Shown here: positions 1-51,760 of the stretch, one piece after another
Layout: every line of letters begins with the position of its first letter
Numbering within the stretch: position 1 is the stretch's first letter
Assembly: GCA_947627565.1 (NCBI GenBank)
Contig: CANQWO010000010.1
Coordinates: 1 to 55,216, forward strand
Direction of reading: 5' to 3'
Origin: an uncultured Clostridia bacterium
Lineage (GTDB): Bacteria; Bacillota; Clostridia; Christensenellales; Borkfalkiaceae
Length of the DNA: 55,216 nt
Translations under genes and position numbers: made by a program
The notes under the pieces: model-generated
What the model saw: only the letters and a program-made list of their open reading frames with translations
The model's database searches: none
What the model was told of the DNA's origin: nothing

Positions 1-533
1 CCCGAAGTCTTGCCTTCCTTGTGCTCGACATCCTCGCCCTTATAGCGGATGCCGTAGCCATGGTAGGGCTCGGGGGTGCGGAAAGCTCTGAGATCCGCGG
101 CGACCTGTCCGACGAGGACCTTGTCGATCCCCGAGACGGTGATCTCCGTCTGGTTGGGACACTCGAGCTTGATGCCCTCGGGCTGCACGAACTCGATGGG
201 GTGCGAATAGCCGATGTTCATAACGAGCTTGTTGCCCTGCATCTGCGCTTTCCAGCCGACGCCCTTGATCTCGAGCCCCTTCGTGAAGCCCTCGGAAACG
301 CCCTTGACCATGTCCGCGATGAGTGCGCGGTAAAGGCCGTGGAGCGCGTTGGTCTCTTCCTTTTCGTCCAGCGCGACGACGTGCACTTCCGCACCGTCGC
401 ACTTGACGCCGACGTTTCCCTTGATCTCACGCGTGAGCGTGCCCTTGGGGCCCTTGACGGTGACGACGTTCTCACTGTATGCAACGGTGACGCCGGCGGG
501 AACTGCGATTACCTTTTTACCGATTCTCGACAT
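1..533 (-). CDS. rplF: 50S ribosomal protein L6, 3' end outside window
   Basis: Large-subunit protein L6, which binds 23S rRNA near the sarcin-ricin loop. Reading the minus strand from the ATG at 533 gives MSRIGKKVIAVPAGV and, near the far end, the conserved L6 C-terminal stretch around YHGYGIRYKGE. About 177 residues are visible and bacterial L6 is usually about 180, so only the last few residues and the stop lie beyond position 1. It follows rpsH by 11 bases in the spc part of the operon. The frame is open to the window edge, which makes it partial rather than broken. Confidence 0.96.
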   Translation of the reverse strand, partial: MSRIGKKVIAVPAGVTVAYSENVVTVKGPKGTLTREIKGNVGVKCDGAEVHVVALDEKEETNALHGLYRALIADMVKGVSEGFTKGLEIKGVGWKAQMQGNKLVMNIGYSHPIEFVQPEGIKLECPNQTEITVSGIDKVLVGQVAADLRAFRTPEPYHGYGIRYKGEDVEHKEGKTS

Positions 534-544
534 AAGTTCCCTCC

Positions 545-934
545 TTAATAGACGTAGCAGAGCACTTCGCCGCCGACATTCGCGGCCTTCGCCTGCTTAT
601 CCGTCATGATGCCCTTGCTCGTGGAGACGATGGCAATGCCGTAGCCGCCGAGCACCTTGGGCATATTCTTTGCGCCGCTATACGTGCGGAGACCGGGTTT
701 CGACACTCTCTCGAGGCCGCCGATGACCGACTTCCCGTTGTTATATTTCAGCGTGACGACGATGGTCTCCCCTTTCTCGCCCTGCTTTAGTTCCACGCCC
801 GCGACATACCCCTCCGCAAGGAGAATGTTCGCGATCGCTTTCTTCATGTTGGAAGCGGGGATCTCCACCGAGTCCTTTCTGACCATGAGCGCGTTTCTGA
901 TTCTTGTGAGCATATCTGCGATCGGATCTGTCAT
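545..934 (-). CDS. rpsH: 30S ribosomal protein S8
   Basis: S8 binds the central domain of 16S rRNA and in many bacteria represses the spc operon. The 129-residue product begins [15 protein letters not shown] and ends with the glycine-rich S8 signature (around [17 protein letters not shown], then GGEVLCYVY). Length is normal (about 130). It sits 11 bases after rpsZ and 11 before rplF, as usual in Bacillota, with a GAGG-type ribosome binding site in each gap. Confidence 0.98.
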
Positions 935-945
935 TTCTTGCCTCC

Positions 946-1131
946 TTACCAGCTCGACTTCTTCACGCCGGGGATCTGTCCCTTATAGGCAAGCTCTCTG
1001 AAGCAAATACGGCAGATCCCGTACTTCCTGAGCACCGCGTGAGGTCTGCCGCAGATCGAGCAGCGCGTATAGGCTCTGGTCGAAAACTTCGGCGTCTTTT
1101 GCTGTTTATTGATCATTGATTTCTTTGCCAT
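946..1131 (-). CDS. rpsZ: 30S ribosomal protein S14, zinc-binding type Z
   Basis: Short S14 (61 residues) of the zinc-containing type. Two CxxC pairs are visible, CSIC at about residues 23-26 and CRIC at about 39-42, and together they would hold one Zn2+. Type Z S14 at this place between rplE and rpsH is the standard arrangement in Bacillota. Zinc-independent S14 paralogues are about 90-100 residues and lack these cysteines. None is present in the window. Confidence 0.97.
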
Positions 1132-1143
1132 ACCCGTCTCTCC

Positions 1144-1740
1144 TTACTTCTTGAAAGGCATTCCGAGCGCTTTCAAAAGCTCTCTGGCCTCTTCGTCGGT
1201 CCTCGCCGTCGTGACGATCACGACGTCCATGCCTCTGATCTTCTCCACCTGATCGTAGCTGATCTCGGGGAAGATGAGCTGTTCCTTGAGGCCCAGCGCA
1301 TAGTTGCCTCTGCCGTCAAACGCCTTATCCGACACGCCGCGGAAGTCGCGCACGCGGGGCAAAGCGATCGAGACGAGCTTGTCGTAGAAGTCATACATCC
1401 TTCTGCCGCGAAGCGTCACTTTGAGGCCGACATTCATCCCCTCGCGGAGTTTGAAGTTCGCGACCGACTTGGTGGCCTTGCGATAGATGGGCTTCTGTCC
1501 CGTGATCTGAGCAAGCTCTTTTTCCACGATCTGCATGGACTTCTGGTTGTCCTTGATGTCGCCGAGACCCGTGTTGATGACGATCTTCTCGAGCTTGGGG
1601 CACTGCATGATCGACGTATATCCGAACTTCTTCATGAGATACGGCACGACTTCCGTTTCATACTGCACTCTGACTCTGCTCGGTTCGGAGGGTGCGGCGG
1701 GCGCTGCTTCAACTTTCTTCGCATTCTTCTTCTCTGCCAT
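1144..1740 (-). CDS. rplE: 50S ribosomal protein L5 with N-terminal extension
   Basis: L5 binds 5S rRNA in the central protuberance. The family core starts at about residue 20 ([14 protein letters not shown]) and ends with the conserved ALGMPFKK. The product is 198 residues against about 180 usually. The extra residues are an Ala/Lys/Glu-rich N-terminus ([20 protein letters not shown]). The ATG at 1740 is preceded by a GAGGGAATATC ribosome binding site, so the extension is probably translated. Similar low-complexity tails occur on L24, L16 and L22 in this operon. Confidence 0.96.
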
Positions 1741-8137: not shown

Positions 8138-9121
8138 TTAATTTGTAGCGCACACCCGCGCGCGTGCGCGCGCTGAGAGCTTGGAGACGGCATAGACGGC
8201 GGCAAGCGCCGTATACGCCAAAAGGAGCACGCCCATTCCCACCAAAAGGGAGATCTCTCCCCAAAACTCCTGCTCGAGGGTCACGCCGATATCGATATGG
8301 TCGATCGCCGACTCGATCGCAGGTTGCAAATATAGCGTGAGCGAAACCAGCGTCAACGTGGCTACCGAACACGCGAACATAGACATGGTATAGGCCTTTT
8401 CCGTCCAACAGCATAAAAAGTCGAAGACCGTGAGCGTTAAGACATAGCGCAGAAGATAGATGCTATCCCCTACGCCGACCACATACCGGTTGATCGGAAA
8501 CATCAAATTCGGCCTTACCAACACGGTGAGATTTTCCTGCATATGCGTGACGCAGACGGCGAAGACGGCGGCCGTAAGCGAGAGAAACACCGCCCAACGA
8601 AAGGCGTTTGCAGGCGCGTTTGCATGGTAAGCCCGCGCGCCGGACTTTTTCATGCGCGCCTTGGAGAGGATATAGACGGCGGCAAGCGCGGCGAAGGCGG
8701 CAAGCGTTACGCCCTCCCCGATGACGACCGGGGTCATGCTGTAAAAGACCCGCTTATCGTCGTCTGTCCGGAGCAGGGAGGAGACATAGCTCTGCGTATA
8801 CGGCCGAAAGGCAACCGTGAGCACGGTGAGGACCAAAAGGGCTACCGAAGAGGCGAACATGGACATGGTATACCGCTTTTCGGTCATACAGCAGAGAAAA
8901 TCGAAGATCGCCAGCGCCAAAATGATGCGTATGCCGTAAAGACCTTCGGGGAGCTCGCGCAACGAGGGATTGAAAAAGACATACGGCCAAAAGACATACG
9001 GCCGCGTCTCCCTTGCGAACGCCTGCGCGATCTCGATGATCGCCATGATGATATTGTTTAAGCACCCTGCCGCGAGGCCCCCCGCGAGCACGATCAAAAA
9101 GATCCTTCTCAAATCCTTCAT
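8138..9121 (-). CDS. membrane protein made of two homologous halves
   Basis: 327 residues, family not recognised. The start at 9121 (MKDLRRIFLIVLAGG) follows GAGGGGG. The product is strongly hydrophobic, with about four membrane segments in each half. The halves are homologous: the first has IFDFLCCMTEKRYTMSMFAS and the second VFDFLCCWTEKAYTMSMFAC. Each half ends in a hydrophobic segment with LAAVYxxSK. This is an internal duplication of one about 150-residue unit. It follows an XRE/membrane regulator by 10 bases, so the pair is probably one operon. No enzyme motif is visible; a transporter or signalling role cannot be decided. Confidence 0.75.
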   Translation of the reverse strand: MKDLRRIFLIVLAGGLAAGCLNNIIMAIIEIAQAFARETRPYVFWPYVFFNPSLRELPEGLYGIRIILALAIFDFLCCMTEKRYTMSMFASSVALLVLTVLTVAFRPYTQSYVSSLLRTDDDKRVFYSMTPVVIGEGVTLAAFAALAAVYILSKARMKKSGARAYHANAPANAFRWAVFLSLTAAVFAVCVTHMQENLTVLVRPNLMFPINRYVVGVGDSIYLLRYVLTLTVFDFLCCWTEKAYTMSMFACSVATLTLVSLTLYLQPAIESAIDHIDIGVTLEQEFWGEISLLVGMGVLLLAYTALAAVYAVSKLSARARARVCATN

Positions 9122-12026: not shown

Positions 12027-12082
12027 GTGATCATCGGCGCGTTTTTGCGTCCCAATGCGGGCCTACTCGCATAAAACGGCCA

Positions 12083-12093
12083 TACCATGTCCG
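12083..12093 (+). repeat. copy of dispersed motif TACCATGTCCG in non-coding DNA
   Basis: The 11-mer TACCATGTCCG lies between a terminator and the 3' end of yhbY. It is one of four non-coding copies of a motif found at least 13 times in extended form. Its orientation is opposite to most copies left of dnaA. Confidence 0.6.
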
Positions 12094-12149
12094 AAAGCAG
12101 CCCTCAGGTTTTCCCGAAAGCGACATAAAGCGCGGAGCGTTCGATCCCC

Positions 12150-12455: not shown

Positions 12456-13946
12456 TTATTTCCCGTCGAGCGGGGTAAATTCGAAGGCGCAGTCGTAGGC
12501 CATCATGCCCTCCGCGCCGATAAAGACCAACTTCGCGCCGTAATGCATGAGCAGGGGCGCAAGGCACCGCAGATTCCTGAAAAATTTCCGCTCGCTCGTT
12601 ACGGCGTAATCCACAATGAACGCCTCGCCGCCGCAATCTGCCACCCCGATCCCGGCGCCGCCGTATTCGTCGTCGCCCGCAAGCATAATGGGCGCTGGAA
12701 TCAGATTTTTGGCGTTGGAAGCATAGTAGGTGAGCGTCTCGAAGGCGCGCTCCACGCCATACATGGGGCGCGGAACATAGAGATAGGCGAAGGCGACCAG
12801 CGGCAGAATGGGCGGGCTCTCCGTGAGGGCGGTGCGGTCCATGAAGGAAAAATCGGGACAGCTCGTGACGCCGTCGGTGATCTGTTCGCGGAAGGGAAGC
12901 TCGTATTCGCCCGCCTCCTCCTTGCCGTAACCGATCGGCGCGGGGAATACCGACTCCTCGCCATATTCCTCGAAATACTGCGCCTCCAATTGGCTCGCGA
13001 CCTCATCGAGGGGTATCATGTCCGCATTGTCGGCCGTCAAATCGTATTGGAAGACGGTGGCGAACACCCGCTCCTCGCCGATGCGCCGAGAGAGCGCGGC
13101 ATGCAGTTCGTTTATGATCTTCGCGCGCGTTTGCTCCTTCAAACTGTCCGCCTTGGGGTGGTAGAGCAGAAGATTTCTCTGCGACGGGATCCCCGAGGGG
13201 ACGAGGCGCAGGATGTTGCCTTCGAATTTCCGCTTGCCCGCGCCGCGATAGACGCCCTTCTTGCGGAAGGGATACACCCGCCAGCCCGCCTCCGCCATCG
13301 GGCCGTCCTGCGCGCTGCCGACATATGCCAAAAAGGCAATGACCTCGCGCGCGATCGGCGTATGGTCGGCGTCCGGGCAAAACAGCAGCGTGTATTGTCC
13401 GTCCTCCACGCCGCCGTAGAAGCGGACGGGAAAACAGAAGTTGGAAAGCTCCCGAACCAGCATGCGGTTGAGCTTGGTTTGGTCGCCGGCGTCGATGCAC
13501 CGGCCGAGTTCCTCCGTCTTTGCGGCGACGCACATCCAAAAATACTGCGCGCACTGCGCGAAGGTCCAGCCGTCCTCCCGCCCCTCCCGTTCATAGCAGA
13601 GGCCGGAGAGCGAGATCTCGCGGTGGTGCCCCGTAAGGTCGCTACTGTCGCCGCCGAAGCGCGCGCAACCGGGGCAGATGCGCTGCACCTGCACCCTGAG
13701 GAGCGCATCGTACTCCTCGGAGGAATAGAGATTGACGCGCACCTCGAAGAGACGAGCCGCGTCTCCGAGAGTAAGTTCCTCCTCGAAGATGCTCTCATAG
13801 ACAAAGTCCGGCGCCATGCAATTTTGCTCTGCGAGCCTTCTGACGCGGACATGGGTATGCCGTTTGAGCTCTGAAAGGGTGGGCGCCTCCTCGGGAAAGA
13901 GATAATATTTATAGTCGTAGAAGAATGCCGGGACCTGTTTTTCCAT
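12456..13946 (-). CDS. unknown protein between obgE and yhbY
   Basis: 496 residues, family not recognised. No signal peptide or membrane helix is evident. Features visible are CPGCARFGG near residue 90, a cysteine-containing segment around CAQYFWMCVAAKTEELGRC (about 131-149), and an acidic middle. The C-terminus (MLAGDDEYGGAGIGVADCGG) looks like a compact alpha/beta fold. It sits 26 bases after obgE and 12 before yhbY, so it is probably co-transcribed with two 50S-assembly factors. A ribosome-associated job is only guilt by association. The ATG at 13946 has GGAG 10 bases upstream. Confidence 0.7.
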   Translation of the reverse strand: MEKQVPAFFYDYKYYLFPEEAPTLSELKRHTHVRVRRLAEQNCMAPDFVYESIFEEELTLGDAARLFEVRVNLYSSEEYDALLRVQVQRICPGCARFGGDSSDLTGHHREISLSGLCYEREGREDGWTFAQCAQYFWMCVAAKTEELGRCIDAGDQTKLNRMLVRELSNFCFPVRFYGGVEDGQYTLLFCPDADHTPIAREVIAFLAYVGSAQDGPMAEAGWRVYPFRKKGVYRGAGKRKFEGNILRLVPSGIPSQRNLLLYHPKADSLKEQTRAKIINELHAALSRRIGEERVFATVFQYDLTADNADMIPLDEVASQLEAQYFEEYGEESVFPAPIGYGKEEAGEYELPFREQITDGVTSCPDFSFMDRTALTESPPILPLVAFAYLYVPRPMYGVERAFETLTYYASNAKNLIPAPIMLAGDDEYGGAGIGVADCGGEAFIVDYAVTSERKFFRNLRCLAPLLMHYGAKLVFIGAEGMMAYDCAFEFTPLDGK

Positions 13947-21568: not shown

Positions 21569-21969
21569 AACTCAATCTCCCGCACGCCGTCCCCTTCCCC
21601 CGTGACGCGCACAACTTTGCAATGTGCGGGCAACAGCCCGCGGATGTTTTCCGACCACTCGATGAGGCAGACCCCGCCCCGTTCGAAATAGTCGCAAAGG
21701 CCCAATCCGATCGCCTGCGCTTCGGAAGCGATCCGATAGCAATCGAAGTGAAAAACACGGCCGCCGCCATACTCGTTGACATAGGCATACGTCGGGCTCG
21801 TGACCTCATCGGAGATACCCATGCCCGCGATCATCCCCTTTGCGAGGACGGTTTTCCCCGCGCCCATGGGGCCCTCGAGGAGCACGACGTCGAAGGGCTT
21901 CAAGGTCTTTGCAAAGTCCTTGCCCCACGAAAACGTCTCAAATTCGCTGTGAGAATCAAAAACGGCCAT
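21565..21969 (-). CDS. tsaE: tRNA t6A biosynthesis ATPase TsaE
   Basis: P-loop ATPase of the t6A complex. 134 residues. Walker A is EGPMGAGKTVLAKGM, followed by SPTYAYVNEY and HFDCYRI, the TsaE pattern. The homologous region begins at MAVFDSHSEFETFS (ATG at 21969); the 19 residues upstream in frame are not conserved-looking. There is no Shine-Dalgarno sequence, and a -10 TATAAT ends 7 bases before this ATG, so the mRNA is probably leaderless. First gene of the tsaE-tsaB-rimI-hydrolase-murF-ddl run. Confidence 0.94.
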   Translation of the reverse strand: MAVFDSHSEFETFSWGKDFAKTLKPFDVVLLEGPMGAGKTVLAKGMIAGMGISDEVTSPTYAYVNEYGGGRVFHFDCYRIASEAQAIGLGLCDYFERGGVCLIEWSENIRGLLPAHCKVVRVTGEGDGVREIEF

Positions 21970-33015: not shown

Positions 33016-33068
33016 TTGCTTTTTCTCCTTGTATCGTTTTCGTTTTACGGTCGTTTTCGATTGCGTAT

Positions 33069-33079
33069 CGCGGACATGG
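33069..33079 (-). repeat. copy of dispersed motif ACCCATGTCCG in non-coding DNA
   Basis: On the plus strand CGGACATGGGT begins at 33071, in the 69-base gap between the Sel1 gene stop and hisS. The minus strand reads ACCCATGTCCG, the polarity seen in most copies left of dnaA. Confidence 0.6.
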
Positions 33080-33084
33080 GTAGG

Positions 33085-33915: not shown

Positions 33916-33929
33916 TGCAAGCGTCCTCC

Positions 33930-33940
33930 TTCGGACATGG
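33930..33940 (-). repeat. copy of dispersed motif TACCATGTCCG in non-coding DNA
   Basis: Plus strand CGGACATGGTA begins at 33932, 17 bases upstream of the Sel1 gene start. It almost touches that gene's AAGGAGG ribosome binding site. Confidence 0.6.
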
Positions 33941-33960
33941 TATGGGGCAATGACTTCATC

Positions 33961-37314: not shown

Positions 37315-39518
37315 TTCTCTTCCTTGGGCTGCTTGGGCGCCCGATAGTTGCATTCTTTGCCGGAGCATTTGACGACTCCGCGAGGCGATCTCACGAGCGC
37401 CGCACCGCATTTCGGGCACTTTTCGCCCGTCGGGACGTCCCAGCTCATGAATTTACAGACGGGATAGCCGCTGCAACCGTAGTATGTCTTGCCCGTGCGC
37501 GTCTTAAGGCGCTTGGTGGGCTTGCCGCATTCGGGGCAGACGCCCTCATAGACGTCGTCCTGCGGCGCGTCGCCGTAGGGAAGGGTGGATTTGCAGGCGG
37601 GATAGTTGGGGCACGCGAGGAATTTGCCGAACCGGCCCGACTTCACGACCATGAGTTTGCCGCATTTGGGGCAGGGCGTGTCCGAGACCTCGGCCTCGCC
37701 TTCGCTCACGATGTTGGAGCAGGCGGGATAGTTGGAGCAGGCGAGATATTTGCCGTATTTGCCCGTCTTGCGGACCATGGGATGGCCGCATTTGGGACAG
37801 AGGATGTCGGTCATTTCGTCGCCGTCCGTCGAAGCGAAGCGCAATTTCTCCTCAAACGGCGGATAGAAATCGGCGATGATCTTGTGCCAATCCGTCCCGC
37901 CCTCTTCGATCTCGTCGAGCTTCTCCTCCATGTCCGCCGTAAAACCGACGTCCATGATGTCCGTGAAATATTTGAGCAGCATGTCGGTGATGCGGTATGC
38001 GATCTCGGTCGGCTTCATATATTTTCCGTCTTTCTCGACGTACTTCCGCTTGGTGAGCACGGAGATGATGGAGGCATATGTGGACGGGCGGCCGATGCCC
38101 TTGTCTTCCATGGCTTTGACGAGGGAGGCGTCGGTATAGCGCACGGGCGGCTTCGTGAACTTCTGCTCCGCATTCAGGCCGAGCGCTTTGAGCGATTGCC
38201 CCTCGTCGAGCGCGGGAAGAAGGCCCTTCGTCTCCTCCTCGTCGTCCTTACGGAAGTCGGCATAGATGACGGTGAAGCCGGCAAAGCGGAGCGCCTTCCC
38301 GCTTGCCTTGAGCCCGTAGTCGCCGTTTTCGATCTCGATCTGCATCGAATCGTATTGCGCTTCCGACATCTGCGACGCGATGAAGCGCTCATAGATGAGT
38401 TTATAGACGTTGTAGTGCTTGCGGTCGAGCAGTTTTTTGACGGACTCGGGCGTCCTCGCAAGGTCGATGGGACGGATGGCCTCGTGCGCGTCCTGCGCGC
38501 CCTTCTTGGAGGCGTAGAAATTGGGCTTTGCGGGCAGATATTCGGGGCCGAATTTCTCCCTGATATAGTCGCGGGCGGCCGCCTGCGCGTCGGCGGAGAC
38601 ACGGGTGGAATCGGTACGGATATACGTCACGAATGCGACATGCCCCTCCCCTTCGAGGTCCATGCCCTCATAGAGGTGCTGTGCCATGAGCATGGTCTCG
38701 GGGGCCGTCATGCCCAACTTGTTGGAGGCGTCCTGTTGGAGGGTAGACGTCGTAAACGGCGCGGGCGCATGCGATTTCGTCACCGATTTCTTGACGGAAG
38801 CGACGATGTAATTCCCCGCCTTGAGCGCGGCGAGGACCTCGTCTGCCGTCGCCTTGTCGGTCACCTTGAACTTCTTGCCCTTCTTCTTCTCGAGCAGCGC
38901 CCGGAACGCGGGGAAGTTCTCCTCGCTGTCCCGAAGGTCGGCCGCGATCGTCCAATACTCTTCGGGCACAAACGCCTCGATCTCCCGCTCCCGTTCGACG
39001 ACGAGGCGGAGCGCCACCGACTGCACGCGGCCCGCCGAGAGCCCGTTCTGGATCTTGTTGTTGAGGAGGGGCGAGAGTTTGTAGCCGACGAGACGGTCTA
39101 AAACCCGCCGCGCCTGTTGGGCGTCGACGAGGTTATAGTTGATGGTGCGCGGATGCTCCAGCGCGTGTTGGACGGCCTTGGGCGAGATCTCGTTAAATTC
39201 GATGCGGTTGGCGCCCGTCTCCGGAAGCCCCAAAACCGTCTGCAAATGCCACGAAATGGCCTCGCCTTCGCGGTCGGGGTCGGTGGCGAGATACACTCTG
39301 CCCGCCTTTGCCGCCTCCTCCGTGAGGCGGTGGATGGTCTCCTCCTTCCCGGGGGAAGTGACATAGCGCGGCTCGTAATTCTTATCCACCGCGACCCCGA
39401 GTTTCTTGGGGGGCAAGTCGCGGATATGGCCGCCCGACGCGTCGACGCGGTATTTCCCCTTGAGGTATCTTGCGATCGTCTTCGCCTTGCTCGGCGATTC
39501 CACAATGATCAGATCCAT
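37311..39518 (-). CDS. topA: DNA topoisomerase I
   Basis: Type IA topoisomerase, relaxing negative supercoils. 735 residues. The TOPRIM domain starts MDLIIVESPSKAKTIARYLKG. The catalytic tyrosine is in TYIRTDSTRVS near residue 300. Four C-terminal CxxC zinc ribbons lie after about residue 575 (CPKC, CSNYPAC, CPEC, CSGYPVC and so on). It lies between dprA and trmFO, as in Bacillus subtilis. Confidence 0.97.
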   Translation of the reverse strand: MDLIIVESPSKAKTIARYLKGKYRVDASGGHIRDLPPKKLGVAVDKNYEPRYVTSPGKEETIHRLTEEAAKAGRVYLATDPDREGEAISWHLQTVLGLPETGANRIEFNEISPKAVQHALEHPRTINYNLVDAQQARRVLDRLVGYKLSPLLNNKIQNGLSAGRVQSVALRLVVEREREIEAFVPEEYWTIAADLRDSEENFPAFRALLEKKKGKKFKVTDKATADEVLAALKAGNYIVASVKKSVTKSHAPAPFTTSTLQQDASNKLGMTAPETMLMAQHLYEGMDLEGEGHVAFVTYIRTDSTRVSADAQAAARDYIREKFGPEYLPAKPNFYASKKGAQDAHEAIRPIDLARTPESVKKLLDRKHYNVYKLIYERFIASQMSEAQYDSMQIEIENGDYGLKASGKALRFAGFTVIYADFRKDDEEETKGLLPALDEGQSLKALGLNAEQKFTKPPVRYTDASLVKAMEDKGIGRPSTYASIISVLTKRKYVEKDGKYMKPTEIAYRITDMLLKYFTDIMDVGFTADMEEKLDEIEEGGTDWHKIIADFYPPFEEKLRFASTDGDEMTDILCPKCGHPMVRKTGKYGKYLACSNYPACSNIVSEGEAEVSDTPCPKCGKLMVVKSGRFGKFLACPNYPACKSTLPYGDAPQDDVYEGVCPECGKPTKRLKTRTGKTYYGCSGYPVCKFMSWDVPTGEKCPKCGAALVRSPRGVVKCSGKECNYRAPKQPKEEK

Positions 39519-39559: not shown

Positions 39560-40633
39560 TTATGATACGGCGCTGTATTGGTTGCCGCCCGCCTTGACCG
39601 CCAGCCCCTTGATCTCCAGCGCGGAAAGGATCGCGGAGACCTCATACGCGGGCATGCCCATCCTCTCGGCGATCGCCGCGGTGTGCATCTCCCCCGTCTC
39701 ACGCAAAATTTCGAGGGCGCGGGCCTCGTCCGGCGTGAGGTCCTGCCGAACCTTTTGCGTCCGCTCCATGCCGTATGCGGAGAGAATATCCGCGGAGCCC
39801 GTCGCAAGGTAAGCGCCCTTTTTGATGAGTTCGTTACAGCCCTCGCCGCGGCTCGCGCCGACGTTGTGCGGAAGCGCAAAGACGTCTCTGCCGTAGTCGA
39901 GCGCGCAGTTCGCCGTGATGAGCGTGCCGCTCTTGGCGCCCGCCGCCAGCACGAGAACGCCCTCGGAGAGCCCCGCAAGCAGGCGGTTGCGCGCATGGAA
40001 GGAATATTTTTTGGCCGTCTCGGAAGGCAGGAGCTCGGAGAGGAGCAGACCGCCCCGCCGGATGCGCTCTTTGAGGGAGGCGTGCGCGGCGGGATAGCAC
40101 TCGTCGAGCCCGCAGGGAAGCACCGAAATGAGATTTCCCGAGGGGAGCGCGCCCTCGATGGCGGCGTTGTCGCCGCCCTCGGCGAGACCCGTCACGATGA
40201 CGAATTTCTCGGCGATTTCCTCGGACATGGTACGCCCCAATTTCTCCGCCCACGGCGGAATGATGCGTGAACCGACGATGCAGAATTTGCGTTTTTCGAG
40301 CAGTTCCCGTCTGCCCGCGCCGAAGAGCACGAGGGGCGGGAGCGAGATGTGTTTGAGCGATTCGGGATAGGCGTCGGAGACGAGCGTTACGGCGAAATAT
40401 CCCTTCCGCGCGAGTTCTCCGAGAAAGGCATCCGCCTCGGCCTCCCGCTTCTCCCGTTCACTGTGATATGCGCACGCTTCCCCCTTGCAGACCGCGGGAA
40501 AATACTTCTCCGGCGTCTCCAAGAGCGCAACGGGGGATGGCGCACGCCCGAGGAGCGCGACGCGTTCGCGATAATCGGTTTGCGTACAGGCACACAGCCA
40601 TAGATATGCCCGTTCTTCTGCGCTGTAATTCAT
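39560..40633 (-). CDS. dprA: DNA-processing protein DprA
   Basis: Loads RecA on incoming single-stranded DNA during transformation. 357 residues with an N-terminal helical region, the Rossmann-like core (FCIVGSRIIPPWAEKLG near residue 116, IVTGLAEGGDNAAIEGAL near 145, NRLLAGLSEGVLVLAA near 217) and a C-terminal winged helix (about 300-357, DEARALEILRETGEMHTAAI). It begins five bases after comM, so the two are co-transcribed. Their presence suggests a capacity for DNA uptake, although no com pseudopilus genes are in view. Confidence 0.94.
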   Translation of the reverse strand: MNYSAEERAYLWLCACTQTDYRERVALLGRAPSPVALLETPEKYFPAVCKGEACAYHSEREKREAEADAFLGELARKGYFAVTLVSDAYPESLKHISLPPLVLFGAGRRELLEKRKFCIVGSRIIPPWAEKLGRTMSEEIAEKFVIVTGLAEGGDNAAIEGALPSGNLISVLPCGLDECYPAAHASLKERIRRGGLLLSELLPSETAKKYSFHARNRLLAGLSEGVLVLAAGAKSGTLITANCALDYGRDVFALPHNVGASRGEGCNELIKKGAYLATGSADILSAYGMERTQKVRQDLTPDEARALEILRETGEMHTAAIAERMGMPAYEVSAILSALEIKGLAVKAGGNQYSAVS

Positions 40634-42177: not shown

Positions 42178-44271
42178 TCAACCGAGAATTGCCGTCAAGA
42201 ACGTTGCGGGAAGCGGGATGGAAAACGTGAAGACCGCAAGCGCCGCAAAGCCGAGGACGAGCAATACGAATCCGACCACATTCACGACCTTCATCGGCGT
42301 CGCCAACTTGCCCTCAAACGAGGCGCCGAACAGGCAGGACGCGAGAAGAAAATAGAAGAGATAGAGAAGGAGCACGAACGGCGCGCATTCTCGAACGGTC
42401 AGCGCCGCAACGAGCGTGACCGCGAGCCCGCAGAGCAAAATGCACACCCGCCGCATCTCGGCGCGCCAGACTTTGTCGCGCTCCTTGACGCCCAGCAGGA
42501 TAATCAGCCGATAGATGCCGTAGGCCAAGCCTGCGGCGCCCGCGGCCAGCGCGACGGGATTGAGCGCGATCATGGTGACGGCGTGCATATAATTCGTGCC
42601 GCTGTATACGGTGCGGAAGATGTTCCACGGCGTACCCGCGCCATAGGCATTGCTGCCCGCAAAGCCGTTGGCGAACGTCTTCCATGCGAGCGCGAAGACG
42701 TTCATCGTCGGCGCGGCGGGATCGTCGTAGAACTTGACATAGGTGAAGTAGGCGGGCAGCATCCCGAGCAGCGCCAAGAGGAACGTGCCGAGCACCAATC
42801 CCACAAAGAACATCACGGGCGCGGCGCGGTTGCGGAATTTATATTCCGCCGCCACTCTGCCGACGCGCAGCGCGGGCGTATCCTCCGCATCCTCCGTCGC
42901 CTCGTTTTCGGGCGCGGGAGCCGCTTCGGCCTCCGCCGCCGCTTTCTCGAGATGATAGCGTTTGGCCGTCTGTTGGCGTACCATGCCCGCGACGAAGAGC
43001 GCGATAACGCCCACGAGCGGGATGAGGAAGGCGCCGTCGACGCACATCGCCGCCGCCCCGAAGAGCCCCGCAAAGAGGAGCGGGAGCGCCGAGAAAACGC
43101 TTGCGCGCTTCATGCCGTTCGCATAGAAGCGGTAGGTCAGCCCGAGCGCGCAGGCAAAGAAGAATACGCCGAGCATGAGGGGCGTGCCGAGATGCCCGTA
43201 GCCCAAGGTGATGCAGGAAAGCGAATAGAGGAGCGTGAAGACGAAACCCGCCTTTTCGCTCTTCATGAGCTTTGTGATGAGGCGCGCAAGGATGAGAAGC
43301 GCTCCGAACGCCGCCAACATGGGGAAGAAGCGGAGGCCGAACGGGCTCATGCCGAAGACGGCCGTCCCGAGCGCGAGAATGTCGTGGCCGAACGCCCCAT
43401 AGACGCCGTCGATGGTATAGGCGTCCGTCGCCACGTTGTCATTGGTCGAAGCAAATTCGCTGCCCCGCCGCATCTCGGAGATGGTCATGAGCGTATAGAT
43501 CTCATCGGCGGAGAAGACGTCGAACGTCGATTGCGCGCCGGCGGGCATGGTCTGCGCGTCCAAAAGCGCCTCCGCGCGTTTTTTCGCCGTCTCGGAGGAT
43601 TCGTTGCCGTAGGGCGTCGCCGAATAGACGGTGGCGGGCACGACTTGCAGCTTTCCCGTGGGCTTGTAGTCGGAATCCAGCCGTTCACCCACAAAGACGA
43701 CTTCGTTCAAGAGCACATTGGGGCTGTCCGATTTCAATTGCAGTTTGACATAGGGATATGTGGATACGCGCCACCCGTCTCCGAAGGAAAACGGCGAAAC
43801 ATAGCGGAAGAGCGCATCCGTCGCGTCGGGCGCGGGAATATCCTGCACGGGCTTGCCGTTCTCATCGAGATCGGCCGTGGGCGTATAGAAGTTCTCGATG
43901 ACGCAGTCGATGGGCGACGAGAACGACGTGGACGTCCCCGAATAGCTACGCTCTATGCGGAACTTGGCGGGCGTACCCGGGTCGCCGTAGATGATGGCGA
44001 TATTGAGATGCACCGCGACCAAACGCAGGTTGACGGTCGTCGTGCCGCCCTCCCCGTTGGGTTCGGTGGGGTTGGTAAGACGGAAGACGACGCCGGGCTG
44101 CTCTTCCGCCTCGGTGGAAGTGCCGAGCTTCGTCATGAGCTCGAACGCATTGCCCGTCCCGCGGACGGAGCCGAGCGTGCCGAGCCCGACCGCCAAGAAA
44201 ACGAGCGCCGCGATGAGAAACGCGAGAAAATAACCTTTCGGGCCCTTCCGGACAAACTTGGTGTTTTTCAT
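42178..44271 (-). CDS. polytopic membrane protein resembling GT39/PMT glycosyltransferases
   Basis: 697 residues. One N-terminal helix (about 14-36) is followed by a large extracytoplasmic domain (about 40-290), then about ten helices. The segment DGVYGAFGHDILALGTAVFG, followed by FFPMLAAFGALLILARL, is like the first luminal loop and helix of protein O-mannosyltransferases, where an acidic residue is catalytic. The order, with a big beta domain before the helices, is unusual for the family. A cytoplasmic linker (about 432-470) is Ala/Glu-rich. Substrate unknown. Upstream ribosome binding is weak (AGGGA 14 bases before the ATG). Confidence 0.6.
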   Translation of the reverse strand: MKNTKFVRKGPKGYFLAFLIAALVFLAVGLGTLGSVRGTGNAFELMTKLGTSTEAEEQPGVVFRLTNPTEPNGEGGTTTVNLRLVAVHLNIAIIYGDPGTPAKFRIERSYSGTSTSFSSPIDCVIENFYTPTADLDENGKPVQDIPAPDATDALFRYVSPFSFGDGWRVSTYPYVKLQLKSDSPNVLLNEVVFVGERLDSDYKPTGKLQVVPATVYSATPYGNESSETAKKRAEALLDAQTMPAGAQSTFDVFSADEIYTLMTISEMRRGSEFASTNDNVATDAYTIDGVYGAFGHDILALGTAVFGMSPFGLRFFPMLAAFGALLILARLITKLMKSEKAGFVFTLLYSLSCITLGYGHLGTPLMLGVFFFACALGLTYRFYANGMKRASVFSALPLLFAGLFGAAAMCVDGAFLIPLVGVIALFVAGMVRQQTAKRYHLEKAAAEAEAAPAPENEATEDAEDTPALRVGRVAAEYKFRNRAAPVMFFVGLVLGTFLLALLGMLPAYFTYVKFYDDPAAPTMNVFALAWKTFANGFAGSNAYGAGTPWNIFRTVYSGTNYMHAVTMIALNPVALAAGAAGLAYGIYRLIILLGVKERDKVWRAEMRRVCILLCGLAVTLVAALTVRECAPFVLLLYLFYFLLASCLFGASFEGKLATPMKVVNVVGFVLLVLGFAALAVFTFSIPLPATFLTAILG

Positions 44272-45010: not shown

Positions 45011-46258
45011 TTACGGCTCGGGCGAGGCCTCTTCCGACAAAATCTCATCGGGTGTCGCGGGCATGGGTGCCCTCTCTTCGATCCCCTGTACGCATTGATA
45101 GCTGTCGCGGCGGATGAGCGAGCGGGAAATTTCCTCGTCTCCGTCGTAGACGACGAGATAGCTCTCGCTGGCGAGGCCCGCCTTTTCCTTGCGCACGGTG
45201 CGGTTCCTTTCGCCCTCGACGATCTTCGCGGGAGGCGGCTCCACGCGGTACAAAACCCTGCTCTCCACCTCATAGCGATAGCCGTCGGGAAGGCCGTAGA
45301 GCGTGAATGTGATGATCCCGTCCTCCGCGCTCGCCAAAATATAGATGGGAAATTCGCGGCCGTTGACGAACTTCAAGTCGCTGTACTCCGAAACCATGGC
45401 GTCCTGCGAGGGCGCGACATAGCCGACGGACAGCGAATGCGGATTGCTTTCGGCGATGTCCAGCCCCGCGCGCAATGCGGCGCCGAACAGCGTGGTGCTC
45501 GCCTGGCACACGCCCCCGCCGACGCCGCTCACAAACTCGCCCTCATAGATGACGGGCGCCTCTAAAAATCCGTTCTCCCGCGTGCGCTTCCCCACCGTCT
45601 CGTTGAAGGAAAAAGTCGCGCCGCTCTCGACGACGGTCCCCGCGATGCGCGACGCCGCCAGCGCCAAATTGTGACTGCGCGGCTTGTTGGAGGCGTCGTA
45701 TCGCGTCGAAAAGGAGGCGAGGGGCTGCGTGCGCGCCTTGAGATCCTCGACCGTCAGGGGCGCCGTCACCTCCTCGACGGGGAGCGTGACCTCCGTCCCG
45801 CCCGTCCGCAGCGCCGCATAGACGTCGGCCAAAAGTGCATGATAACGGCACGCCGTGCCGCTCTCCTCGGGGACATATGTGAACCCGGTTTTATCGAAAA
45901 GAAGTGCGGCGTCTTTGGGCGCTTTGACATGATTGCGGCATACCATGTCCAAAAACTCCTCTGCGTGGATCCATTCGCGGCGCTGCGTGACGGCATAATT
46001 TCCGCGCCGCGCCCTGTGCAGAATTTCCTCGGCGTCGTCGGCATAATCGAGCTCGCAGGCGATGTCGCCGGTCGGGGTATGCAGGGTGAGCGGCAGATCG
46101 GGCAAGGTCTTCCGGACCCGCTCCGCCGCCTCCGGATAGGACATCCCGCCCACGTCGACGCCGTTCACAACGACGCCCTTTCTGACCTTTCCGCCGCCGC
46201 ATCCGCCCAAAAAAAAGCTCCCCGCAAGGAGGAGCGCCGCCATCTTCATGTTCTTCAT
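45011..46258 (-). CDS. VanW family lipoprotein
   Basis: 415 residues. Signal peptide with lipobox FFLGGCG (Cys about 20). A YoaR-like/PG-binding region (about 28-200) precedes the VanW domain, with [20 protein letters not shown] and [18 protein letters not shown] (about 255). VanW domains occur on many clostridial surface proteins and are not by themselves a sign of vancomycin resistance. The ATG at 46258 overlaps the PHP gene stop by four bases, with GGGAG upstream. Confidence 0.9.
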
Positions 46259-47160
46259 ACGCTCCCTTTCAAAGAAAGGAGCAATTCCGCGATCTCCGAC
46301 GCATCGAATACGGGAGAGCCGACCGAGCGCGAACTGTTGGCCGAATGGAAATCCGAACCGCCCGTAACAAACAGGCCGTGCGCCTTGGCAAACGCGCGAA
46401 ATTCCTCCGTTTCCTCTGCAGTATGCGTCGAATGGACGCATTCTATGCCGTCCGCGCCCTCCTCGATCAGCCGCTCCATGAGCGCGTTCCGCGCGCCGGC
46501 ATAGGTGCGCTTGGCCTCCTCGCGCGCCTCCCTGTCAAAGTGCCGGAACCGGGCGGAGACGTCCTCGGGGAGCACGAGGATCTGCGCGGGATGTGCGATC
46601 ACGGCGAGCCCGCCCATGGCGTGGATGAGGTGCACGGCGTCGATGGGCGAAGGGCGGCAGAGATCGGAAAACGCAGGGGCGCCCGGGACAAAGATGGCGC
46701 CAAACAGGGCACCCATGTCCGAAGATAGGCGCTTCGCAAACGCGTTGACGACGTGCATCAAATGGATGGGCGCCTCCTTGCGCGTGTGGAAAACTTCCAC
46801 CTCATCCATGGTGACGTCGAGCGAGAGCGCCCGATTGGCCTTTTCGAGAATGTCCTCCGCGCGGCGGCGCGCGCCCTCCCTGCACGCCTCGAGATAGCGG
46901 AAATAGGCCGCGTTCTCCGCACAGCCATAGCCGAGCATATGGACTTTGGTCGGGCCGATGTATGCGGAGATCTCGATCCCCCGCACGAAATGCAGTCCCA
47001 GCGCCCGTGCGGCCTCCGCGGCCTCGCGGCAGCCCGCCATGTTATCGTGATCGGTGAGCGAAAAGAGTTCAACGCCGGCCTCCGCGGCAAGGCGGGCCAC
47101 CTCTGCGGGCGGATACGCCCCATCCGAGCAGAGCGAATGCAGATGAAGATCGGCTCTCAT
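46255..47160 (-). CDS. PHP-domain phosphoesterase
   Basis: 301 residues. Metal-binding PHP motifs are in order: DLHLHSLCSDGAYPP (residues 4-18), TDHDNM (about 36), HPAQI (about 192) and GGSDFH near the end. The length and motif pattern match the YciV/TrpH group (5'-nucleotidase or RNase AM-like 5'-exonuclease activity in known members). It starts four bases inside the recF end and its stop overlaps vanW, so the three genes form one operon. Confidence 0.88.
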   Translation of the reverse strand: MRADLHLHSLCSDGAYPPAEVARLAAEAGVELFSLTDHDNMAGCREAAEAARALGLHFVRGIEISAYIGPTKVHMLGYGCAENAAYFRYLEACREGARRRAEDILEKANRALSLDVTMDEVEVFHTRKEAPIHLMHVVNAFAKRLSSDMGALFGAIFVPGAPAFSDLCRPSPIDAVHLIHAMGGLAVIAHPAQILVLPEDVSARFRHFDREAREEAKRTYAGARNALMERLIEEGADGIECVHSTHTAEETEEFRAFAKAHGLFVTGGSDFHSANSSRSVGSPVFDASEIAELLLSLKGSV

Positions 47161-48360: not shown

Positions 48361-49707
48361 ATGTCCGAAAAAGCACAATTCGAAGTTTTATGGGAGAAAA
48401 TCAAAGAGCGGCTCGAAAAGCTCATCACCCCCATCACCTACGTTACGTTCTTTGAGGGACGGCTCGAAGCGACCGACGTCATCAACAAAAAAATCGTCCT
48501 GCGGGCGGATTCGGAAAATGTCGCCGATATCGTCACGCGGAACGGAGACAAAGTGAGAAAGGCCATCGCCTCCGCAGACGTCGGGCTCACGGACTTCGTC
48601 CTCTTCGTGGAGGGCAGCTCGAACTATACCCTCGACGAACTCCCCGATGCGCTCGAAGAGGTCTCCGTCGCCACGGACAAGCGGTTCACGTTCGATTCCT
48701 ATGTGGTCGGCGCCTCCAATAAGTTCGTCTATGCGGCCGCAAAATCGGTGGCAAGCGCGCCGGGAGAAAACTTCAATCCGCTCTACATCTATGGCGGGAC
48801 GGGGCTCGGCAAGACGCACCTCCTGCAGGCCATCGCCAACGAGATCGCCGATAAGAAGCCCTCGCTCAAGGTGCTCTATACGACGAGCGAGAAGTTTTTG
48901 AACGAATATGTGGATAGCATGTACGCGAGAAAGGGCGAGGGACGGGAAGCGGACGCGCGCTTTCGGAACCGCTACCGCAACGTCGACGTGCTTCTCATCG
49001 ACGACATCCAATTCTGGGCGGGCAAATACGGCGTGCAGGAGGCGTTCTTCCACACCTTCAACGAGCTCTTCTCGCAGAACAAGCAGATCGTCATCACGTC
49101 GGACTGTCCGGCAAAGGATCTGACGACGCTCGAAGAGCGCCTGCGGACCCGCTTCGAGGGCGGGCTCATCGCCGATATCCAGCCGCCCGACATCGAGACC
49201 AAGATCGCCATCCTCAAGAAAAAGGCGCTGGAAAAGAAATATATCGTGCCGGACGACGTGCTCCAGCTCCTCGTCAAAAATTCCGACAACAATGTGCGCA
49301 CGCTCGAGGGGCGGCTGAACACCGTCATCTTCGCCAGCAAACTGCATGAGGAGCCCATCTCGCTGCAACTCGCCGCCACGGCATTGCAGGAGGCCATCAA
49401 CGACGACGAGCCCGAGATGATCACGCCCGACGCCATCGTCCGCGCGACGTGCACGCACTTCAACCTCATGCGGCAAAACCTCCTCGGCAAGAACAAAAAG
49501 CAGGAATTTGTCCGCGCGCGGCAGATCTGCGCCTATCTCATGTGCGAAATGCTCTCGCTCCCGCTCGTCAACATCGGGCAGGAAATGGGCGGGATGCACT
49601 ATTCCACCGTCATCTACGCCCGCGACAAGATCGCGGAACTGATGCGCGTCAACGACAAGATCTTAAAGGACGTGAACGACATCAAGAGCATCGTCCTCAA
49701 ACAATAA
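48361..49707 (+). CDS. dnaA: chromosomal replication initiator DnaA, divergent DNA-binding signature
   Basis: 448 residues. Domain I covers about 1-80, a short linker follows, and the AAA+ domain III has IYGGTGLGKTHLLQA near residue 143, VLLIDDIQFWAG near 211 and the sensor region RLRTRFEGGL near 261. Domain IV (about 335-448) has VRARQICAYLMCEML and the signature helix-turn-helix. The usual GGRDHTTV is replaced by GGMHYSTVIYARDKI, which changes residues that contact the DnaA box in Escherichia coli (Arg432, Asp433, His434). The rest is orthodox. mnmG follows; dnaN does not. Confidence 0.96.
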   Translation: MSEKAQFEVLWEKIKERLEKLITPITYVTFFEGRLEATDVINKKIVLRADSENVADIVTRNGDKVRKAIASADVGLTDFVLFVEGSSNYTLDELPDALEEVSVATDKRFTFDSYVVGASNKFVYAAAKSVASAPGENFNPLYIYGGTGLGKTHLLQAIANEIADKKPSLKVLYTTSEKFLNEYVDSMYARKGEGREADARFRNRYRNVDVLLIDDIQFWAGKYGVQEAFFHTFNELFSQNKQIVITSDCPAKDLTTLEERLRTRFEGGLIADIQPPDIETKIAILKKKALEKKYIVPDDVLQLLVKNSDNNVRTLEGRLNTVIFASKLHEEPISLQLAATALQEAINDDEPEMITPDAIVRATCTHFNLMRQNLLGKNKKQEFVRARQICAYLMCEMLSLPLVNIGQEMGGMHYSTVIYARDKIAELMRVNDKILKDVNDIKSIVLKQ

Positions 49708-49761: not shown

Positions 49762-49775
49762 GCTTCGGAGCAGCT

Positions 49776-51641
49776 ATGCAGACTTTCCAAGAGACAACTT
49801 GCGACGCCGTCGTCATCGGCGCGGGCCACGCGGGCGCGGAGGCGGCTCTCGCCCTCGCAAGAACGGGGTGCCGCACCGTCGTGTTGACCCTCAATCTCGA
49901 CAGCATCGGCTTCATGCCCTGCAACCCCTCCGTCGGCGGCACCGCCAAGGGGCATCTCGTGCGCGAGATCGACGCGCTCGGCGGCGAAATGGGCGTCGTT
50001 GCCGACCGGTGCGCCCTGCAATACCGCATGCTCAACGAGGGCAAGGGCGCGGCCGTCCGGTCGCTCCGCGCGCAGGTCGATAAAAACCGCTACCATACCG
50101 AAATGAAGCGGGTCTTCGAGCATACGGAAAACCTCCGCGTCGTCCAAGGGGAAGCCGCCGAACTGCTCACGGAAAACGGCAAGATCGTCGGCGTGAAGAC
50201 GTCTTACGGCGGCGTATTTTCCTGCCGCGCCGTGGTCGTCGCAACGGGCGTCTATCTCGGCGCACGCACAATTACGGGCACCCATGTCCGCGAATCGGGC
50301 CCCAACGGCTTCGAACGCGCCACGCTACTGACGCAAAATCTGGCCGCGCTCGGCTTCCGCATCCGCCGCTTTAAGACGGGCACGCCCGCCCGCCTCGACG
50401 GACGGACGGTGGACTATTCCCTGCTCACCAAACAGCCGGGCGAGGCGACGTATCCCTTTTCCTATCTCACGCCGCACGTGCCCGAAGCGGAGGCGCAGAC
50501 GCCGTGCTATCTCGCCTACACCAACGCCCAAACGCACGCGCTCATCCTCGATAACCTCGACCGCGCTCCCCTCTACAACGGCGAAATTTCCTCGACGGGG
50601 CCGCGCTACTGCCCCTCCATCGAGACCAAAGTCGTGCGGTTCCGCGAGAAATCCCGCCATCAACTCTTTTTGGAGCCCGAAGGCGCGGACACGGGGGAAG
50701 TCTATGTGCAGGGGCTCTCCACCTCCCTCCCCCACGACCTCCAAAAGGAGGTCTACCGCTCCGTCGAAGGACTTGCGCACGCGGAGATCATGCGCTACGC
50801 CTATGCCATCGAATATGACTGCATCGACAGCCTCGACCTTTTGCCAACGCTGGAGAGCAAGCGCGTCGCGGGGCTGTATTTCGCGGGACAGATCAACGGC
50901 ACGAGCGGCTATGAAGAGGCCGCGGCGCAGGGGCTCATCGCGGGGCTGAACGCCTCCCTCGCCCTCCGCGGCAAGGCGCCCCTCGTCCTCCGGCGCGACC
51001 AGGCCTATATCGGCGTCCTCATCGACGACCTCGTCACCAAGGGCACCGAGGAACCCTACCGCATGATGACCTCGCGGGCGGAATTTCGCCTCGTTTTGCG
51101 GCAGGACAACGCCGACGAACGCCTCACCGAGATCGGCTACCGGGCGGGGCTCGTCAGCGAGGAGCGACATACGATCTTTTTGCAGCGCATGGCGATCAAG
51201 GGGCATACCATGTCCGCGCTCAATGCGCGCGCAGATCAAAAAACGGCCGATAGACTCGTGCAGGAACACGGCCAACCGCCGCTTACGGTGGGCGTGACTT
51301 ACGCCGATCTCATCCGCCGCGGCATCGGAATCGAGGAGATCAAAGACGTCTTCGGGCTCTTCGAGGGCGTGCCCGTCGATCTGCTCGGAAGCTGTGAGAC
51401 GGAGATCCGCTACGCCGGGTATCTGAAGCGCAGCGAGGAGGAGATCGCGCGGGCCCGCAAGATGGAATCCGCCCCCCTTCCGCCCGACCTCGACTATGCA
51501 AAACTCGAGGGGCTTCGCTTGGAAGCGCGGGAAAAACTCGCCGCGATCCGGCCGCTGAATTTGGGACAGGCGGCGCGCATCTCGGGCGTCTCCCCCGCCG
51601 ACATCGCCGTTCTGACCGTCTACCTGAGCATGAAGAAGTAA
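49776..51641 (+). CDS. mnmG: tRNA uridine-5-carboxymethylaminomethyl modification enzyme MnmG
   Basis: FAD-dependent partner of MnmE in wobble-uridine modification. 621 residues. VVIGAGHAGAEAALALARTG near residue 12, MPCNPSVGGTAKGHLVREID near 46, RYCPSIETKVVRF near 275, and the C-terminal helical domain ending SPADIAVLTVYLSMKK. The ATG at 49776 has CGGAG upstream and matches family starts. The long open frame upstream overlaps dnaA out of frame and is not used. mnmE is not in the window. Confidence 0.96.
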   Translation: MQTFQETTCDAVVIGAGHAGAEAALALARTGCRTVVLTLNLDSIGFMPCNPSVGGTAKGHLVREIDALGGEMGVVADRCALQYRMLNEGKGAAVRSLRAQVDKNRYHTEMKRVFEHTENLRVVQGEAAELLTENGKIVGVKTSYGGVFSCRAVVVATGVYLGARTITGTHVRESGPNGFERATLLTQNLAALGFRIRRFKTGTPARLDGRTVDYSLLTKQPGEATYPFSYLTPHVPEAEAQTPCYLAYTNAQTHALILDNLDRAPLYNGEISSTGPRYCPSIETKVVRFREKSRHQLFLEPEGADTGEVYVQGLSTSLPHDLQKEVYRSVEGLAHAEIMRYAYAIEYDCIDSLDLLPTLESKRVAGLYFAGQINGTSGYEEAAAQGLIAGLNASLALRGKAPLVLRRDQAYIGVLIDDLVTKGTEEPYRMMTSRAEFRLVLRQDNADERLTEIGYRAGLVSEERHTIFLQRMAIKGHTMSALNARADQKTADRLVQEHGQPPLTVGVTYADLIRRGIGIEEIKDVFGLFEGVPVDLLGSCETEIRYAGYLKRSEEEIARARKMESAPLPPDLDYAKLEGLRLEAREKLAAIRPLNLGQAARISGVSPADIAVLTVYLSMKK

Positions 51642-51699
51642 AATTTTCTCTTTGGTCCGATCCCGCTTCGCCCGATTTTCGGGCGGATCGCAGCATATC

Positions 51700-51730
51700 A
51701 AAAAAGAGTCCGCACGGGACTCTTTTTTTC
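51700..51730 (+). terminator. bidirectional terminator after mnmG
   Basis: AAAAAGAGTCC and GGACTCTTTTTTT around a five-base loop (stem 51701-51711 with 51717-51727). A-runs and T-runs on both sides allow it to stop mnmG and possibly queH transcripts. Confidence 0.85.
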
Positions 51731-51749
51731 ATTTGACAGAAAATGGCAC

Positions 51750-51760
51750 TACCATGTCCG
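51750..51760 (+). repeat. copy of dispersed motif TACCATGTCCG in non-coding DNA
   Basis: The 11-mer TACCATGTCCG lies between the mnmG terminator and the queH stop. With the copies at 50280 and 51206 it is one of three right of dnaA, all in the same orientation on the plus strand. Confidence 0.6.

Follow-up and report, generated by a model that had tools for sequence, protein, structure and literature searches.

A dispersed motif of about 30 bp, without strand polarity and nearly absent around the terminus, in genomes of an uncultured Clostridia lineage

A stretch of 55,216 nucleotides (contig CANQWO010000010.1, positions 1 to 55,216; the window) from an uncultured Clostridia bacterium of the Borkfalkiaceae (GCA_947627565.1) carries repeated copies of a 9-mer, CGGACATGG, which was found to be the core of a motif of about 30 bp dispersed through the genome. 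The sites showed no replication-strand polarity and were excluded from the region around the terminus in four species, while their abundance turned over rapidly among relatives and other dialects of the motif prevailed in a sister lineage. By analogy with known site systems, the chances appear about even that these are terminus-excluded, chromosome-organising sites with a nucleoid-occlusion-like role for a putative reader protein. Genomes (G), loci or stretches (L) and contigs (C) are given our working labels where they need to be told apart; the genomes compared were drafts or metagenome-assembled genomes.

Core and extended motif

Seventeen exact copies of CGGACATGG were present in the window compared with 0.43 expected from dinucleotide shuffles, none of 100 reaching 17. 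All were at the positions and on the strands listed in a preliminary description of this DNA and thirteen extended as it had said, to CGGACATGGTA (n = 6) or CGGACATGGGT (n = 7). Across the assembly, a 99.6% complete draft of 1,804,522 bases in 63 contigs, the 9-mer occurred 333 times (175 forward and 158 reverse) and the reversed pattern four times (3 and 1), which upheld the earlier view of a real genome-wide motif. A 455-kb sample of the genome held 65 copies within genes, against 17.7 +/- 3.5 after synonymous-codon shuffling (n = 200, maximum 27), in agreement with the earlier argument that protein coding does not explain the motif. Intergenic enrichment was likewise found, with 17 copies in the same sample against a Markov expectation of 0.25, and four copies in the window (12085, 33071, 33932 and 51752) were intergenic by independent gene calls, made with a simple purpose-made caller.

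Aligned copies revealed a wider motif, TC(G/T)CGG(A/G)CATGG(TAT or GTR)..C.C..WTT...GTC. The core CGG(A/G)CATGG is preceded by T or C at -3, C at -2 and G or T at -1, and followed by a TAT or GT(A/G) triplet at +9 to +11. Farther downstream, positions +13 and +15 are rich in C and the tract from +17 to +20 in T, GTC occupies +23 to +25, and flank conservation ends at about +27. The two extended forms had been described as one base out of phase; both keep the same distance to the T-tract and to GTC, and are therefore alternative triplets rather than a phase shift. Of 84 cores in this genome, 42 were followed by a TC starting at +24, none by one at +25 and 13 by one at +20. The TC at +24 recurred in G016 (18 of 29) and among the named relatives when pooled (19 of 42), but did not recur in G015 (4 of 31). 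When compared with a Noc- or SlmA-type palindrome the sites were non-palindromic in the genus of the window; the sister lineage has the palindrome GGGCATGCCC.

Sites were scored with a weight matrix of 30 columns (threshold 12) trained on this genome, including the window, with the reversed matrix as the control. The window held 37 matrix sites, and of its 17 exact cores 16 fell within them. The copy at 37928 in topA scored below the threshold and lies in a stretch that is alike in four relatives, three of them motif-poor (no site in the L014 and L045 loci and one in that of L051), and so judging from sequence it is probably not a member of the motif. Site mapping covered 37% of the genome (667 kb) and gave 188 extended sites, 155 of them genic, at a density of 0.459 per kb in intergenic compared with 0.260 per kb in coding DNA (1.8 times). 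Spacing looked random (coefficient of variation 0.955 vs. 0.959 simulated), which left an even spacing unsupported, and spacings under 500 bp were slightly rarer than random (p 0.04). An inverted-pair (terminator) layout was rejected, as only 22 of 173 gaps were under 400 bp and these included every orientation. A literature search with the 9-mer and its extensions gave only papers that were unrelated by title, and the other searches likewise listed no report of the motif.

Orientation and terminus

The preliminary description had proposed a leading-strand polarity that switches at dnaA. Among the cores of the window nine were on the plus and five on the minus strand to the left of dnaA, and none and three, respectively, to its right. 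The pattern did not hold in the 667 kb of the genome that were mapped, in which 91 of the 188 sites followed the coding strand of the local majority and 97 opposed it (p 0.72); the switch at dnaA is therefore not general and replication-strand polarity was rejected. Genic sites were on the coding strand in 68 cases and on the template strand in 87 (p 0.15). An apparent polarity in G191, plus-strand only among the matches listed, was discarded when the fetched stretches were found to carry both strands. Only two DnaA boxes were found in the window, while contig C12 carries parB, a ParA-like gene, jag and two parS sites; the replication origin may therefore not coincide exactly with dnaA and may have been split from it.

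The terminus was located independently of the motif. Genes on contig C9 lie mainly on the plus strand up to about 33 kb and on the minus strand beyond (a convergent switch), the cumulative GC skew has its maximum at 28.7 kb, and coding-strand switches occur at syntenic places in G016 (C1), G015 (C7) and G009 (C4). GC skew also agrees with this terminus in G015, where its peak is some 8 kb from the switch, and roughly so in G016, where the distance is about 14 kb. A search for dif with consensus sites gave no convincing match, and the position therefore rests on the coding-strand switch, synteny and partly GC skew. A broad terminus domain (C4:0-80 kb, C5, C6, C9 and C1:0-50 kb) and a narrower, synteny-linked one (C4:0-80 kb, C6:0-27 kb and C9) were delimited; the broad one takes in C5 and part of C1 without a syntenic link between these and C9.

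The broad domain held 15 sites in 321 kb (reversed-matrix control 4) and the other 346 kb held 173 (control 1), or about 0.05 vs. 0.50 per kb, and the narrower domain 6 sites in 165 kb compared with 182 in 502 kb (p 5e-16). Genes of the broad domain contained 6 cores, near the codon-shuffled level of 4.3 (100 shuffles, maximum 9), while other genes contained 71 against 18.3 (maximum 27). The left edge on C4 was sharp, with seven sites at 80-90 kb and one in 0-80 kb. The increase in density toward dif that had been linked to an FtsK-type function was seen in reverse, as a near-absence around the terminus. Terminus regions of three other species were similarly poor in sites: 3 per 100 kb vs. 8 per 20 kb in G009, 4 per 113 kb vs. 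54 per 160 kb in G016 and 1 per 40 kb vs. 35 per 140 kb in G176.

GC content was lower in the terminus stretches. Ten proteins sampled from site-poor stretches included DNA polymerase III alpha, HtpG, CarB and a RarA-type ATPase; since core proteins are among them, these stretches are not simply foreign islands and a horizontal origin was unsupported. A seeming counter-example in G016 (L137, ten sites, partly matching C5) had its best matches to C8 and 56-66% to C5, and is probably paralogous. In one site-poor stretch, on contig C5 of G000, an open reading frame of some 6,100 codons is predicted (L093:793-19116, minus strand).

Sites in the window and in related genomes

The features of the window are given below with coordinates, strand and matrix score. 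Sites with a core coordinate were found by the matrix and as an exact core, the others by the matrix.

290..319, minus: extended site, 20.1, core 308-316, in gene 3-533 (minus)
8857..8886, plus: extended site, TGGACATGG core, 19.5
12067..12096, minus: intergenic extended site, TAT form, 29.6, core 12085-12093
13843..13872, plus: extended site, GTR form, 27.0, core 13846-13854
17825..17854, plus: extended site, GTR form, 23.6, core 17828-17836; by alignment present too in L027 and L030
21484..21513, minus: extended site, 24.7, core 21502-21510
21801..21830, minus: extended site, CGGGCATGG core, 28.4
23015..23044, plus: weaker site in mgtE, 17.0, core 23018-23026
24093..24122, plus: extended site, CGGACACGG core, 24.3
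24778..24807, minus: intergenic extended site, CAGACATGG core, 25.2
25398..25427, plus: extended site in glyA, TAT form, 29.5, core 25401-25409
28175..28204, plus: extended site, GTR form, 25.9, core 28178-28186
28696..28725, plus: extended site, GTR form, 31.1, core 28699-28707
29590..29619, plus: extended site, CGGGCATGG core, 25.3
33068..33097, plus: extended site, GTR form, 32.2, intergenic core 33071-33079
33519..33548, minus: extended site, CGGGCATGG core, 23.8
33929..33958, plus: intergenic extended site, TAT form, 26.7, core 33932-33940
37928..37936, minus: exact core in topA, under the matrix threshold, probable non-site
39560..40633, minus: dprA (gene call), context only
40219..40248, plus: extended site in dprA, TA form, 27.1, core 40222-40230
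40639-42159, minus: comM (YifB; gene call), context
42963..42992, minus: extended site, CGGGCATGG core, 20.2
45055..45084, plus: extended site, CGGGCATGG core, 24.5
45925..45954, minus: extended site, TGGACATGG core, 21.4
46695..46724, minus: extended site, GTR form, 26.2, core 46713-46721
48361..49707, plus: dnaA (gene call), context; used for the tree of relatives
50264..50293, minus: extended site in mnmG, GTR form, 23.0, core 50282-50290; also by alignment
51190..51219, minus: extended site in mnmG, TAT form, 27.0, core 51208-51216
51734..51763, minus: intergenic extended site, TA form, 30.6, core 51752-51760
54720..54749, minus: extended site, CGGACACGG core, 20.4
Window: eleven additional matrix sites, scores 12.3-17.6

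The genes comM and dprA, noted previously as lying near motif copies, were both located on the minus strand of the window, and recF and dnaA are divergent (47157-49707). An Rfam scan of the window returned a single match, at no motif site: an FMN riboswitch (24825-24940, minus strand) upstream of a gene for an energy-coupling factor transporter substrate-binding protein (24055-24744), probably ribU.

The nearest named organism by DnaA was Candidatus Gallimonas (70-76% identity). Copies of CGGACATGG numbered 7 to 260 in 24 relatives of the same genus and 1 to 48 in other families of the order (16, one genome each), where controls gave 2 to 37. In a sample of 151 genomes of the family the form CGGACATGGKW was strong in many same-genus members (258 copies in the genome of the window and up to 246 in others). 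Two other genera included some members in which it was weaker (13 to 47 copies). The shorter GGRCATGS was enriched in the L054 (1276 vs. 207) and L056 (676 vs. 239) genomes of the sister lineage, where GGGCATGCCC was prominent in both and GGGCATGGGT also in L056. The L055 genome (G189) showed the opposite of these related lineages, a strong depletion of GGRCATGS (67 copies, with 367 of the reversed control).

In a tree of 60 DnaA rows the 15 loci labelled site-rich grouped together, with 7 changes compared with 13.4 after shuffling (none of 500 as low). They comprised a clade of the window with L001-L005, L009, L015 and L017, in which L014 is a site-free member, and besides this clade L027/L030 and some others; L056, although distant, was also site-rich. 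Among the ten best alignments the mnmG site at 50282 was kept in L001-L005, L009, L015 and L017 and differed in L037 and L042, the translated alignment reading TGTHVRE here vs. TGEVVSD in L037. Gap-free aligned sites were kept in 38 of 60 cases in rich relatives and in 3 of 51 in poor ones. Pairs in which an indel interrupts the site, 18 of 78 in rich relatives and 38 of 89 in poor ones, were set aside; nearby control places gave 16 of 90 and 17 of 127.

A search for another motif in the motif-poor G012 brought out only dispersed repeats. Such repeats, resembling miniature inverted-repeat transposable elements (MITE) or repetitive extragenic palindromic (REP) sequences, occurred in motif-poor relatives, for example around TGACGTACTGA, CCTCCATTGGAG and TCGAAATGACA, in stretches L139-L148 of G012 and in L028, L031, L032, L046 and L051. 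Repeated AATTAAAAAT-type sequence was seen near dnaA in the related genomes of L048 and L052.

Genes for competence and type IV pili were surveyed in 41 genomes. ComEC was present in 36 including that of the window, which also encodes DprA. Neither T2SSF nor T2SSE over its cut-off was found in the genome of the window (99.6% complete), and the ComEA model matched only a 724-aa frame below its cut-off, which we take to be a Tex-like protein. T2SSF was detected in nine genomes, four of the same genus with 11 to 35 cores (G001, G003, G012 and G014) and five of other families, and was not found in eight same-genus genomes with 63 or more cores (G002, G004, G005, G009, G011, G015, G016 and G018). 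T2SSE agreed with T2SSF, the one exception being G002, where a frame of 279 aa gave a marginal match. Another set of 26 genomes had T2SSF over the cut-off in seven (G012, G003, G132, G181, the moderately motif-enriched G139 and those of motif-rich L003 and L009), a match below the cut-off in L017 (= G095), and none in G115, G176, G067, L001 (= G049), L002, L004, L005, L015, L027 and L030, the last a weak negative at only about 0.9 Mb. Pili and the motif neither go together nor exclude each other. Type IV pilus genes are patchy in the genus, being present in the genomes G001, G003, G012, G014, G132, G139 and G181 and in those of L003 and L009. The ParB family (PF02195) had one match in the genome of the window, beside the ParA-like gene and parS, and mostly one in same-genus genomes (two in G005, three in G015 and two in G024).

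Candidate functions and comparison with known systems

Terminus exclusion and the lack of polarity together favor the nucleoid-occlusion-like role. Palindromic sites have no strand polarity, and none was seen here (91:97). Two unrelated specific nucleoid-occlusion factors have been named, the ParB-type Noc and the TetR-type SlmA, whose sites (about 70 and 24-52, respectively) are under-represented at Ter (PMC4726725), and nucleoid-occlusion motifs have been described as excluded around the terminus (PMC4786541). Sites in the genome of the window, G009, G016 and G176 were spread in the same way. A putative chromosome-binding protein would bind the dispersed double-stranded sites of about 30 bp (TC-K-CGGRCATGG-TAT/GTR-SC.C.-WWTT-..-GTC), which would be kept over most of the chromosome but away from the terminus, over a domain of some 165 kb or more. 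Once loaded on its sites, the protein would mark unsegregated chromosome by blocking division or tethering DNA, and its absence from the last-replicated region would license division when only terminus DNA remains at mid-cell. We infer that a protein reads the motif, that the exclusion is selected and that the link is to division over another architectural task. The wider proposal is tentative, its chances somewhat short of even: a previously undescribed chromosome-marking system, with a reader that is neither Noc nor SlmA, would tie division to replication through fast-changing dialects, CGGACATGG in the genus of the window and GGGCATGCCC and GGGCATGGGT in the sister lineage.

Several observations weigh against the nucleoid-occlusion-like role. 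The 333 exact cores are several times more than the sites of Noc or SlmA and are non-palindromic in the genus, no reader protein was identified, no search aimed at its gene having been made, and the PF02195 search of the genome showed a single ParB match and no Noc paralogue, that ParB adjoining parS. In the weak-motif G015 the depletion was only 2.7-fold (3 sites in 90 kb vs. 29 in 328 kb) and not significant (p 0.063), and the coding-strand switch on C4 of G009 has no internal GC-skew peak. The C1 flank looks graded, with 3, 7 and 12 sites in successive blocks of about 50 kb. The outline and limits of the broad domain and the position of the C4 boundary were set once the counts were already known, and the contiguity of C4, C9 and C6 as one domain is inferred from different relatives, as the C4-C9 adjacency comes from G016 and that of C6 and C9 from G015 and G009. 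Abundance also changed quickly among close relatives (11 copies in G012 vs. 333) and the motif-rich clade has a site-free member, L014, both of which are more typical of an uptake-type drive.

Such a drive is an unlikely explanation but the best placed of the alternatives. A receptor would prefer DNA with the motif, in the manner of a DNA uptake sequence (DUS) or uptake signal sequence (USS), and transformation would spread the motif as a molecular drive, leaving the terminus poor because recombination is rarer there. This candidate, raised in the preliminary description, fared unevenly. The over-representation, both strands and dialects of uptake sequences were all found, and the architecture of a 9-bp core plus an AT tract resembles the Haemophilus USS (PMC7811141). 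The lack of strand bias matches reports on uptake sequences (PMC1939737), and more DUS are expected in regions that recombine more (PMC2397512). A drive would also suit the conflict of the motif with protein sequence in mnmG, the unequal keeping of sites in rich and poor relatives with patchy dialects, gain mostly by substitution, the lower GC in terminus stretches, the presence of DprA and ComEC, and T2SSF in motif-rich L003 and L009 and in G139. The uptake explanation is weakened, however, because the genome of the window and most motif-rich relatives tested were without type IV pilus genes; for the competence pilus (T2SSE, T2SSF and ComEA) nothing exceeded the cut-offs in the genome of the window, while pili do occur in the few-copy relatives G001, G003, G012, G014, G132 and G181. 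A near-background terminus with a sharp left edge is also hard to obtain from a recombination gradient, and in those parts of the literature that were consulted no terminus exclusion was reported for uptake sequences. A literature search for uptake signals in Firmicutes gave no paper, and to our knowledge no sequence-specific uptake signal has been known before in a Gram-positive lineage. Were the motif an uptake sequence instead, it would be such a signal in mostly pilus-free genomes and equally surprising.

Less likely still is some other terminus-excluded architectural system that has no role in division, such as condensin loading, membrane anchoring or origin-domain segregation. The same distribution would serve it, and ParB segregation looks separate given the parB, ParA-like gene, two parS sites and jag on C12, but no evidence specific to it emerged and fewer known precedents exist for hundreds of sites.

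A Chi-type recombination hotspot read by AddAB or RecBCD is improbable. Chi is a short single-stranded DNA signal with leading-strand bias. The density of 333 copies in 1.8 Mb is of the order of that of Escherichia coli Chi and a rapid turnover would be possible, but the expected polarity and short core were both absent, the elements being spaced over about 30 bp and nearly missing at the terminus. Debris of a MITE- or REP-like mobile or repetitive element, or a transcription element, is very improbable: the intergenic excess and the indel-interrupted sites, in poor relatives above all, would suit it, but flanks were not conserved beyond about +27, most sites were genic, gaps in the alignments shown were of 1-7 bases, spacing was random-like and the sole Rfam match of the window lay off-site. 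An FtsK/SpoIIIE-orienting polar sequence (KOPS, or SRS for SpoIIIE), as earlier proposed from the skew of the cores in the window, is scarcely credible, since the 188 sites had no polarity and the terminus trend was the reverse of that in E. coli, where KOPS favor the leading strand and are more frequent in the ter half (PMC4786541).

If the nucleoid-occlusion-like role is true, a large uncultured clade would have a further, independent site system by which division is coupled to replication of the chromosome. Its sites would be several times more numerous and its dialects quick to change, and the motif sequence would offer a bait for the reader protein.

Compared with known systems, the sites resemble those bound by Noc in Bacillus subtilis in being sequence-specific, dispersed along the chromosome and depleted at Ter (PMC4726725), unlike them in that Noc has about 70 palindromic sites of 14 bp while here there are hundreds, non-palindromic and of about 30 bp, with a single ParB match. 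SlmA sites are likewise under-represented at Ter and SlmA is unrelated to ParB (PMC4726725), although E. coli has 24-52 palindromic sites and the present ones are hundreds, non-palindromic and with a putative reader. Like the motif, the Haemophilus USS has a 9-bp core with an AT tract downstream, occurs in many copies, evolves by point mutation and has lineage variants (PMC7811141); the differences are the terminus exclusion seen here and the pilus genes missing from most carriers tested. The Neisseria DUS is similar in abundance and dialect evolution; it differs in a genic share of 34-42% (PMC2397512), compared with 155 of 188 here, and in that the genome of the window is without pilus genes. 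KOPS and Chi have in common with the motif that they are over-represented, whereas here polarity is lacking, the terminus trend is opposite or has no counterpart and the motif is longer. The motif is a proven member of neither the nucleoid-occlusion nor the uptake family, and it works most like nucleoid-occlusion sites.

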